DNA from: Thomasclavelia spiroformis DSM 1552
GTDB taxonomy: Bacteria; Bacillota_I; Bacilli_A; Erysipelotrichales; Coprobacillaceae
Length of the DNA stretch: 64,000 bases
Direction: 5' to 3'
Assembly: GCF_025149465.1 (NCBI RefSeq)
Contig: NZ_CP102275.1
Coordinates: 1,302,001 to 1,366,000, forward strand
The notes under the pieces were generated by a model. The model was given only the letters and a program-made list of their open reading frames with translations, was not told where the DNA came from and did no database searches. Each line of letters begins with the position of its first letter. Position 1 is the first letter of the stretch. Of this stretch, positions 7,743-64,000 are shown one piece after another. A program made the position numbers and the translations under genes.

Positions 7743-8085
7743 ATTTATTATGATTTAAATCATCAATAATTTTTTCAATCTTATTACCATATTGTAAAGA
7801 AGTATCATTTACAAAATGTAACTCAGGAACTTTACGAATTGTAAGACGTTTTGCAAGCAACGAACGAATAAAACCCTTTGAACGCTCTAAAGCCTGCATT
7901 CCTTTACGTGTATCAAAATCTTTACCTAAAAATGTTACATAAATTTTAGCAATAGATAAATCATTAGTTAAATCAACTGCAGTAATCGTACAAAATCCTA
8001 TCTTAGGATCACGAACTTCCATTTGAAGAATTTGTGATAACTCTCTTTGAATAATACCACTAACTTTTTCCTTCTTTAAAACCAT
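7741..8085 (-). CDS. rbfA: 30S ribosome-binding factor A
   Basis: 114-residue KH-like protein that binds the 5' region of 16S rRNA and is needed for late 30S maturation. Family features are IQRELSQILQMEVRDPKIGF near the N-terminus, LSIAKIYVTFLG in the middle and the C-terminal VPELHFVNDTSLQYGNKIE. Length is normal. It is the last gene of the rimP-nusA-ylxR-ylxQ-infB-rbfA operon, 8 bp after infB. In many relatives truB and ribF follow here; neither is present. Confidence 0.95.
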   Translation of the reverse strand: MVLKKEKVSGIIQRELSQILQMEVRDPKIGFCTITAVDLTNDLSIAKIYVTFLGKDFDTRKGMQALERSKGFIRSLLAKRLTIRKVPELHFVNDTSLQYGNKIEKIIDDLNHNK

Positions 8086-54539: not shown

Positions 54540-55724
54540 ATGAAATTAATTGGTATTGATATCGGAAAGAACAAGCACTTCTTTTGTATTATGGATAAAG
54601 ATACTGGTGAAGTTGTCGTTTCGCCATCTTCTTTTCCCAACAATAAAGAAGGGTTCGATTCTCTGATTCAAAAAATTAAACTTTATTCCAAGGACTCTGT
54701 CCTCATCGGTATGGAAGATACCGGTCATTATCACTTTGCTTTGCTGAAATACCTTTTGGACAACCATTTTGCTGTTGCTTTAATCAATCCTAAAACCACT
54801 GATTTTGCTCGTAAGATGCAGGGCGGCATTACTAAAAACGATAAACTTGATACTATAACTATCTGTGATGTCCTGGATACTCACGAACGCAAGAAGCAGT
54901 ATCGTATCACCAGAGTCGATCGCTTCGATCTTTATGAACAGAAGCAGCTGACCAGACATCATCATAATCTAAAAGAAGAATTGAACGTCTATACGAATCG
55001 TCTTCAAAAATCTATCGATATCGTATTTCCTGAGTTCAATCGTCTGTTCAAGAGCAAGTACGGTTCCGTCTACATGAATATCCTTAAAACATTCGGAAGT
55101 GCTGACAATATCGCCAATACTGATATAAGAACGCTTCGCAAATGTTTTGAATCAAAAGGCAGAGGAAGACGTATATCTTTGACACCTGAGCAGCTCAAAG
55201 AATGTGCGAAAATATCAATCGGCATCCCATCAGCTGCTGAAGTGATTCAGATCAGACATCTCATCAGCCAGATCGAGCTTGTCAATGAGCAGATTGCCGA
55301 AATAGATAAAAAAATAGAAGAGTTTTCCGTCCAAAACAACTCTCCTATCCTAACCATACCAGGAATTTCACATTTTTCTGGTACCTCTATTTTAGCCGAA
55401 TTAGGAGAGATATGCAACTATTCCAAACCGTCCCAAATCATTAAATTTGCAGGAGTAGCTCCTTATCATTACGAGTCAAGTCAATATAATGCACAGCATA
55501 CTGCCATTACCAAGAAAGGATCTAAATACTTGCGAAAGACCTTGTACCAGATAATACTTCCTGTAATCAGGTTCAATCCTGTATTCAAAGAATATTATCA
55601 GTTGAAGATTTCTCAAGGCAAAGGCCATCGATGTGCACAAGGGCATTGTGTAAGGAAGCTGCTTAGAATCGTTTATCATCTGCTGAGTACAAATCAGCAG
55701 TTCAATCCTGGACTTCTAAGATAA
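54540..55724 (+). CDS. IS110-family transposase, copy 2
   Basis: 394 residues, intact. It has the same DEDD and C-terminal Ser motifs as copy 1: GIDIGKN, GMEDTGHYH, INPKTTD, ILTIPGISHFSGTS and FAGVAPYHYE. It follows GAAAGGATG. It differs from copy 1 at roughly one residue in six or seven. Confidence 0.95.
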   Translation: MKLIGIDIGKNKHFFCIMDKDTGEVVVSPSSFPNNKEGFDSLIQKIKLYSKDSVLIGMEDTGHYHFALLKYLLDNHFAVALINPKTTDFARKMQGGITKNDKLDTITICDVLDTHERKKQYRITRVDRFDLYEQKQLTRHHHNLKEELNVYTNRLQKSIDIVFPEFNRLFKSKYGSVYMNILKTFGSADNIANTDIRTLRKCFESKGRGRRISLTPEQLKECAKISIGIPSAAEVIQIRHLISQIELVNEQIAEIDKKIEEFSVQNNSPILTIPGISHFSGTSILAELGEICNYSKPSQIIKFAGVAPYHYESSQYNAQHTAITKKGSKYLRKTLYQIILPVIRFNPVFKEYYQLKISQGKGHRCAQGHCVRKLLRIVYHLLSTNQQFNPGLLR

Positions 55725-61425: not shown

Positions 61426-61482
61426 AAAAGAGACTTCTTAAACGATTGATAAATACAATCATTTTCGAAATCTCTTTTTTTA
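61426..61482 (+). terminator. Terminator of asnA
   Basis: Long hairpin with AAAAGAGA/TCTCTTTT outer and GATTG/CAATC inner stems, followed by TTTTATT on the plus strand. Confidence 0.7.
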
Positions 61483-62121: not shown

Positions 62122-62164
62122 AAACAAAAACCAGAAATTATATCGATAGATAGTAATTTCTGGT
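62122..62164 (-). terminator. Terminator of the RiPP operon
   Basis: Minus-strand 11-bp stem ACCAGAAATTA/TAATTTCTGGT followed by TTTTGTTTA, about 50 bp after the precursor peptide gene. Confidence 0.75.
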
Positions 62165-62214
62165 CAAAATAAAGTCATCTTAACTTAATAATATTAAGAT
62201 AAATTTTTACTCAA

Positions 62215-62322
62215 TTAATAGTTAATAAACATTACAGTTTGAGTATACCAAGGACACCAACAAGATCCTAAAGCAACAGTTTCTTGTTTTTTATTTTCAA
62301 CAATTACCTTAACTTCTTCCAT
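62215..62322 (-). CDS. Candidate RiPP precursor peptide with CWCPW core
   Basis: 35-residue peptide with a very strong ribosome site (AAGGAGGGGAG) 4 nt before the ATG. The first about 18 residues are charged and leader-like. The last 17, GSCWCPWYTQTVMFINY, have two Cys, two Trp, two Tyr and no charge. It follows a radical SAM/SPASM gene by 36 bp on the same strand and is the last gene before a terminator. That is the layout of a ribosomally made, radical-SAM-modified peptide. The leader end ETVALGSC weakly recalls CLI_3235-type Cys-rich precursors, but the core does not match any family I know. Confidence 0.75.
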   Translation of the reverse strand: MEEVKVIVENKKQETVALGSCWCPWYTQTVMFINY

Positions 62323-62358
62323 GATTCTCCCCTCCTTCCTTTTTATTAACAAACCAAA

Positions 62359-63882
62359 TCAATTATCAATTGATTTGATAATGTTCACAAGCAATTCAGG
62401 GTTATTTTCTAATAACTCATGGTAAATTATCAAGCAATCTTTCACAAAATTTTTCATTCTAATACAATCATTTCTCTTAGCGACTATATTAAATCCTTTT
62501 TCATCATAACAATTTGAAAAGCATGCTGGACACAATTTTGAAGCCCAACAATGTAAACAATCATTTTTAGACTGTTCTATATAATCATAATAATAATGTT
62601 TAATCAGTTCATCTTTATTGAAACCAGTTTCAACATTACCAATTGATGGTGAATGACCAATTTTTTCACAAACTTTAAATTCACCATTAGTTGTAATAAA
62701 AATTCTTTTTTGTCCTGGTATACAACAACCATTCATAGGAATTATACAACCAGGTGCTTGACTAATTCTACGATTATTAATCTTTATAATTAGCCTTCTA
62801 ATAGCTTGAACTGCGTAATCAAATGGATCAGTAGTCTTTAACGATTTTCTCAAAAAGAAATCCTTTATTGGTTCTGATAGCAATTTATTAGGATATTCAA
62901 TATTATCTTTAACTTCGTATGTTCCTGCCTTTACTTTGGTATTCTCACAATTAATTTCTTTTGGTAACCAATCTAATCCAGTAAAAAAATCATAAATTGC
63001 TTGCAATCTTTCATCTGTATATGGCGGACAAATTACCGTATAGATAGATAAACATCTTTTAGCTCTTTCCCCAAATGCATCTATCAAATTATGCAAACCT
63101 TCTATTGTTTTATCAAATGTACCTTCATCATTGATTGATACTCTAAAATTATCGTGAATATTCTTAGGACCATCTATACTACAAGTGATAGTACAATCTT
63201 CTAGATTAGCAAAAAAATGTGCTCTTTCTCTAGTCATCAAAGACAAGTTAGTTGTCAAAGCGTATTTGATTTTTAGTTTTTTGGGTTTATGTATATTCAC
63301 ATAATTTACAGTTTTTTCTATTAAATCAAATCGAACTAAAGGTTCACCTCCATAAAATCCTATAACTAATAAACCTTTAGCTAAAGGTAACATATAATCC
63401 AGAGCTTTTTTTATTATTTCCTCATTCATGTTTTTAGCAGAAAAATTTCTAAAATAATCACTTTGCTCATTATAAATACAATATTTACATCTAAAATTAC
63501 AATTTTCTGTTAATTCAAATACTATTTGTGTAACTATATCTGTTGAATGTTCTATAAATTCTCTATATCCATCATAAAATTGAAGATCTTTTTCATTAGA
63601 TAATATTTTAGTATTTTCTATTATTGCATTTACTTTTTCTATTTCTTTATCTAAATATTTATCATAAATATCTACACCATTTAATATATCATTTAAAATA
63701 TTATACTGTGTTGGTTCACATCTAAATACTTTCTCAGTCTTAGTATCATAAAAATACTTAGAATTAGATGTAGAAAAAGTAATACCTAAATTAGATAAAT
63801 TCAATATATTCCCCTCTTCCCATTTAAATAAAGTTTCCTTATCTATTATTATAAAATCTTTTTCAAATATTTCAATATCCAA
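62359..63882 (-). CDS. Radical SAM/SPASM peptide maturase (CcpM-like)
   Basis: 507 residues. An N-terminal about 120-residue region with SKYFYDTKTEKVFRC may bind the leader peptide. The radical SAM cluster is CNFRCKYC (Cys128, 132, 135), followed by GFYGGEPLVR and a TIM-barrel core with TCSIDGP. The C-terminal SPASM region has GCCIPGQ, FKVCEKIG and CLHCWASKLCPACFSNC, enough Cys for two auxiliary 4Fe-4S clusters. It would introduce thioether or other carbon-centred links into the peptide at 62215-62322. The only start is TTG at 63882, with no clear ribosome site and a TAA two codons upstream, so the true N-terminus is uncertain. Confidence 0.88.
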   Translation of the reverse strand: MDIEIFEKDFIIIDKETLFKWEEGNILNLSNLGITFSTSNSKYFYDTKTEKVFRCEPTQYNILNDILNGVDIYDKYLDKEIEKVNAIIENTKILSNEKDLQFYDGYREFIEHSTDIVTQIVFELTENCNFRCKYCIYNEQSDYFRNFSAKNMNEEIIKKALDYMLPLAKGLLVIGFYGGEPLVRFDLIEKTVNYVNIHKPKKLKIKYALTTNLSLMTRERAHFFANLEDCTITCSIDGPKNIHDNFRVSINDEGTFDKTIEGLHNLIDAFGERAKRCLSIYTVICPPYTDERLQAIYDFFTGLDWLPKEINCENTKVKAGTYEVKDNIEYPNKLLSEPIKDFFLRKSLKTTDPFDYAVQAIRRLIIKINNRRISQAPGCIIPMNGCCIPGQKRIFITTNGEFKVCEKIGHSPSIGNVETGFNKDELIKHYYYDYIEQSKNDCLHCWASKLCPACFSNCYDEKGFNIVAKRNDCIRMKNFVKDCLIIYHELLENNPELLVNIIKSIDN

Positions 63883-64000
63883 AAATTATAAGTTTAATAA
63901 TTTAAACATAAGTATTTAAAAATAAATATTTTTATCTACTTAATTTATTTATTTATTTTTAAATACTATTTTTTCAAATAATGATACTCTTAAAACAAAA
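63883..64000. other. AT-rich edge upstream of the maturase
   Basis: No gene seen. A short open frame ATG TTT AAA TTA TTA AAC TTA ending in TAA lies in phase with the maturase at about 63886-63909. The promoter of the RiPP operon is probably here or beyond the window edge. Confidence 0.35.

Follow-up and report, generated by a model that had tools for sequence, protein, structure and literature searches.

We describe a real, conserved and apparently hitherto undescribed two-gene RiPP cassette in Thomasclavelia spiroformis, found in a stretch of 64,000 nucleotides (the window, positions 1302001-1366000 of a genome consisting of a single contig of 2,528,470 bases). It encodes a radical SAM/SPASM maturase and a 35-residue precursor peptide, on which the maturase probably forms a single nested thioether hairpin of the RumC kind. 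On the best reading, the pair represents a new subfamily of thioether peptides of the RumC type with one hairpin only, encoded by an orphan cassette inserted between asnA and purB. The occurrence of the pair together in six genomes, with the peptide credible nowhere else in the order, counted for a two-gene RiPP cassette. A RumMC score far under the cut-off, the lack of a match to any precursor model and the variability of the residue 13 positions after the first cysteine counted against the RumC-like reading.

The peptide gene lies at 62215-62322 on the minus strand and encodes MEEVKVIVENKKQETVALGSCWCPWYTQTVMFINY, with a leader of approximately residues 1-20 and the core CWCPWYTQTVMFINY at residues 21-35. 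A Shine-Dalgarno sequence, AGGAGG, precedes its ATG at about 62331-62336 (minus strand), and the ORF follows the stop codon of the maturase gene, also on the minus strand, after 36 nt. An earlier, sequence-only reading had called this a real gene for its strong ribosome site and its position behind the maturase; comparison with the relatives, in which the frame is conserved beside every complete maturase gene, confirmed the 35-codon ORF as such. The same reading had ended the gene at a terminator. Folding does give a hairpin followed by a T-rich tract at 62130-62164 (minus strand), a probable terminator of the cassette, but it went unflagged in a strict scan for terminators.

The 5′ end of the maturase gene had to be moved. 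It had been placed at TTG 63882, giving a frame of 507 aa that is over-extended by 26 codons; the start is likely to be TTG 63804, and we take the gene as 62359-63804 on the minus strand (481 aa) because of the starts of the relatives, a stop codon upstream in T. cocleata and a promoter match inside the extension. In T. cocleata and a second congener, G003, the gene reads ...AAAATGAATTTATCTAAT and starts at about the same place, the window codon aligned there being TTG 63804, behind a probable ribosome site AGAGGGG (63811-63817, minus strand). The extra stretch is not kept as coding in either relative, and the stop in T. cocleata is in frame. Upstream of the corrected start lies a promoter-like TTGAAA-16-TATAAT (63848-63875, minus strand; 11 of 12 consensus positions), with a similar −10 region in G003 and T. 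cocleata; since promoter-like matches are overall no commoner than in shuffles, this promoter is backed by its position and not by their count. Since the gene upstream of the pair, purB, has a strong terminator-like hairpin at its end, the two genes probably form a separate transcription unit.

The assignment of the enzyme to the radical SAM/SPASM proteins, already made by the sequence-only reading, holds. Pfam Radical_SAM was detected, and CX3CX2C is accompanied by the SPASM motif CX13GX4CX36CX2CX5CX2CX18C (residues 128-135 and 386-473 of the 507-aa frame), exactly the spacing reported for RumMC1 and RumMC2 (PMC8188230). The top curated model (NCBIfam) was RumMC, NF035951, with 453.6 bits (E 8.4e-136), which does not reach the cut-off of 720 bits; the relatives score 460-557 bits. 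The models for CcpM (TIGR04068, 234.3 bits, below the cut-off of 500), the SCIFF maturase (TIGR03974, 109.6 bits, below 425), lachnocin and PapB all score far under RumMC, and judged by sequence the kinship of the enzyme to RumMC is firm. The AlphaFold model (mean pLDDT 69.5, from an alignment of 8 sequences) aligns with the thioether-forming enzyme CteB over residues 2-465 (Z 21.8-22.2, rmsd 4.2-4.3, 398-417 residues) and has an N-terminal domain of three strands and three helices (residues 7-87), as expected of an RRE.

That the best full-length structural match is CteB, a SCIFF maturase, favours a different chemistry, namely ranthipeptide-type thioethers (to a beta or gamma carbon) or another radical link, for instance at the Trp or Phe of CP[WF], in place of alpha-carbon sactionines. 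The thioethers made by CteB have since been reassigned to a carbon other than the alpha one, ranthipeptides or cyclophanes are the products of many SPASM maturases, and the aromatic residue at CP[WF] is conserved. However, sequence favours RumMC, an alpha-carbon sactisynthase, by a wide margin (PapB, SCIFF and cyclophane models reach at most 117 bits among the matches listed), and the RumMC SPASM spacing is exact. We regard these other links as unlikely.

In the RumC-like mechanism, which we prefer, the maturase would bind the leader through a putative RRE at its N terminus, with the leader strand VKVIVE as the presumptive natural ligand; modification by RumMC2 is abolished without its RRE (PMC8188230). 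Folding of a fusion in which the enzyme reads on into the peptide (natural frame, TGA as Trp) left the peptide unplaced (pLDDT about 22-34). With its radical SAM cluster and its two SPASM clusters, the enzyme would then link the sulfur of one or both CxC cysteines to carbons of later core residues by thioethers; as with RumMC, alpha carbons are the likeliest acceptors. The first hairpin of RumC1 is made by Cys3-Asn16 and Cys5-Ala12 (PMC8172795), the acceptors lying at +13 counted from the first cysteine and at +7 counted from the second; in precursor numbering, Cys22-Asn35 and a link from Cys24 to residue 31 were reported, the N-terminal connectivity being harder to fix (PMC6779426). By analogy, Cys21 would be joined to Asn34 and Cys23 to Val30, a single nested hairpin corresponding to RumC without its C-terminal half. 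At +7, five of the six precursors have Val and the sixth has Ala, while the +13 residue varies (N, N, N, T, F, G) yet is always present; the peptide of G057 ends exactly there, and only that of G147 has a longer tail past it. Because the +13 position is just reached by the window peptide, there is room for the first RumC hairpin only. Leader removal and export would fall to proteins encoded elsewhere. The precursor has no GG site for leader cleavage; the RumC leader is removed by trypsin (PMC6779426), and trypsin-type removal is conceivable here, as Lys residues are also present. We infer that the enzyme modifies the adjoining peptide, and likewise the bridge type, the acceptor residues and the purpose of the product, be it antibacterial or signalling.

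To follow the pair through the order, 316 genomes were searched. The maturase (E<=1e-40) was present in six, and a peptide profile, the search for co-occurrence that the sequence-only reading had proposed, recovered the peptide in the same six and no other credible copy in the 316. The complete maturase relatives, 36-86% identical and belonging to three genera and two families, are always followed by a gene for a short CxCP peptide. T. cocleata has a maturase 85% identical and then MKEVKVIVESKKQQTIAEGSCSCPFTSQTVMFFTF, G003 one 86% identical and then MKEVKVIVENKKQEAIAKGSCWCPWTSQTVMFINF; in G007 the same peptide as in G003 stands at the start of a contig and its maturase at the end of another. 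The maturase of G057, from another family, is 41-42% identical and precedes MKLVNPLNKVVIEKAGNEFYSAACSCPFMSQTVMFNF, and that of G147, from another genus, is 36% identical and precedes MKMVNQKMTDENKRNLICNCPFASQSAMFGGGWYLVNKG. As four of the six carriers belong to one genus, the independent lineages number three; neither gene was seen in five of the nine genomes of the genus.

All these peptides share the core C-x-C-P-[WF]-x-[ST]-Q-[TS]-[VA]-M-F. A conserved core beside the maturase had been predicted, but the CWCPW put forward as its hallmark is one variant only. Between families, identity is 50-92% in the 12-residue core, 20-30% in the leaders and 35-41% in the enzymes; T. cocleata and G057 share 11 of 12 core residues. 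The distant homologs have their own ribosome sites and varying distances between enzyme and peptide. The sequence-only reading stood to fall if relatives that keep the maturase had lost the frame, or if another precursor lay just past the window edge: the frame is kept wherever the downstream side of the maturase gene is assembled, and beyond the edge there are a terminator and purB only.

Other matches to the peptide profile were discarded, those in G141, G086 and G089 as chance (they run antisense to uvrB) and the weak ones in the phylum (E 0.005-0.009) with stops in three of four. No relatives of the peptide were found on plasmids and viral contigs, and the latter held no close relative of the maturase, only distant kin with multi-Cys precursors. 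A contig scan with single-protein patterns matched T. cocleata alone. G007 has a second RumMC-like maturase, 38% identical, on its contig 145 (L034 1-1662), adjoined by mannose-type PTS genes as in G147; the contig edge falls just after a GGAAAGGAG ribosome site and GTGAAA, which cuts off the precursor. In the maturase tree, G147 groups with this contig-cut copy, apart from the other four, the backbone being open; the tree does not show the CxCP group as one clade.

The asnA-purB interval that holds the cassette is about 3.0 kb long, from 61340 to the window edge at 64000 and about 364 nt past it. The congeners T. cocleata, G003 and G007 carry the cassette elsewhere, and their asnA and purB are adjacent, with 154, 248 and 172 nt between the stops, respectively. 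DNA similarity to the T. cocleata cassette covers 62158-63910, with one more match of 98 nt upstream. The pair thus moves as a unit. The genes flanking the pair differ among the three genera while the pair stays together, and nothing dedicated to export, proteolysis or immunity is conserved along with it. An exporter with a C39 peptidase was considered as a partner and rejected: all nine genomes searched within the genus have C39 domains, irrespective of the cassette, and in G147 there are none, so they are not tied to it.

Several other features were recorded. A 394-aa ORF at window 54540-55724 resembles, by eye, an IS110-type transposase. Two species have similar hairpin-like sequences, AGAGACT...CTCTTTTT, close to the flanks of the cassette (window 61428-61480; L003 about 7980-8040), possibly a genus-wide repeat or terminators. 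A SCIFF-like pair in the same genome as the window (L030 1402-3012, contig 1 near 1057538) consists of a 52-aa peptide, MKHIMTLETRNLCDSAKNGGCGECQTSCQSACKTSCGIANQKCENTNKKNEK, and then a 461-aa radical SAM enzyme that is 27% identical to the window maturase.

The near-freezing of the core between families while leader and enzyme diverge, and the lack of the export and immunity genes seen in antibiotic sactipeptide clusters, would point to another role for a new RiPP subfamily, that of a conserved non-bacteriocin molecule (a signal or a peptide-derived cofactor); we hold this as a minority view. Much less probable is that the peptide gene, though real, shares a transcript with an orphan maturase whose substrate it does not encode, its product being a small peptide that acts in regulation or in the membrane. 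Such a peptide would fit the hydrophobic, uncharged tail and the missing exporter or immunity gene; yet the pair is kept together in three genera despite differing flanks, and both the CxC that opens the core and the MKLVNP that starts the G057 leader resemble substrates of related maturases. The small ORF is short, and synonymous changes between congeners are too few to make a codon test firm, but the idea that it is a frame open by chance behind the maturase gene is refuted by its conservation, the core being kept behind enzymes only 36-42% identical, with separate ribosome sites and different spacing (profile E 5e-19 for G057 and 1e-14 for G147, each row itself part of the scoring profile).

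As for the precursor, no NCBIfam or Pfam model matches the window peptide, which had been proposed as part of a probable undescribed RiPP pair. The RumC precursor model NF035950, a family with four Cys in two hairpins where this peptide has two Cys only, gave no match at E 10, and neither the CA_C0660 model NF035954 (cut-off 60 bits) nor the CLI_3235 precursor model TIGR04065 matched. The G057 precursor does match NF035954 over residues 1-27, its leader and CxC (E 3.9e-4; 20.4 bits, under the 60-bit cut-off). A profile-profile comparison of these precursors with Apre_1838-type precursors found nothing, so homology rests on that one weak model match, and kinship to known sactipeptide precursors is suggestive only. 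Related maturases on plasmids and viral contigs (31-34% identical), mostly with ABC transporters alongside, are followed by precursors of 65-66 aa such as MKFINPLGRHPGSGAQPQACMCSTG... On the Paraclostridium bifermentans plasmid CP124692.1 (L053 3932-5487), a RumMC-like maturase is split into two annotated frames in front of an intact Apre_1838-like precursor, which indicates a broken gene or a sequencing misread. The placing of the precursor after the enzyme, remarked on at the outset, is correct but usual among the nearest relatives and no distinguishing mark. The peptide does differ from CLI_3235, SCIFF and Clo7bot, as had been said, but its nearest kin are the RumMC/RumC and CA_C0660/Apre_1838 sactipeptides.

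Keyword searches of the open literature, with the core letters included, returned no description of the cassette; subscription journals lay outside their scope, and novelty is to that extent not proven. If our reading is true, the cassette offers a natural minimal substrate for an enzyme of the RumMC type, with one short precursor, two cysteines and one maturase, in which the choice of thioether acceptors and the activity and stability of a lone RumC hairpin would become easy to test. Whether such peptides serve gut bacteria in some way other than as antibiotics is a further question, prompted by the conserved core and by a cassette that is both orphan and mobile.

Among known systems, SCIFF (CteA-CteB) and CLI_3235/CcpM share the architecture of radical SAM and SPASM domains, preceded here by a putative RRE, and CteB is the nearest solved structure, but their precursors have six or many Cys in contrast to two here, and the maturase falls below both cut-offs. 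Streptosactin (GggA/GggB) is also a short sactipeptide, whose two thioethers come from a single SPASM enzyme (PMC8172795), although its rings are unnested, its precursor and maturase belong to other families and its cluster contains a protease and regulators. Closer are the CA_C0660/Apre_1838 systems (NF035954, TIGR04067), in which maturases of the Apre_1838 type are about 33-34% identical, the precursor comes directly after the maturase and the leader and CxC resemble those of G057; unlike the window peptide, which matches neither model, the examples have five or more Cys in 65-66 aa, with ABC transporter genes beside them. RumC, with RumMC1 and RumMC2 (NF035950, NF035951), differs in its precursor of 63 aa (35 here), in its four Cys (two here, with no second hairpin and a hydrophobic QTVMF tail) and in having two maturases and five precursors where the window has one gene of each; the window enzyme, moreover, is far below the family cut-off and has no exporter or immunity genes adjoining. 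Nevertheless, the radical SAM and SPASM domains are the same, with a putative RRE-like domain in addition, and the Cys spacing is identical, CxC opens the core in both, and the geometry of the N-terminal RumC hairpin (+13, +7) fits within the window peptide.
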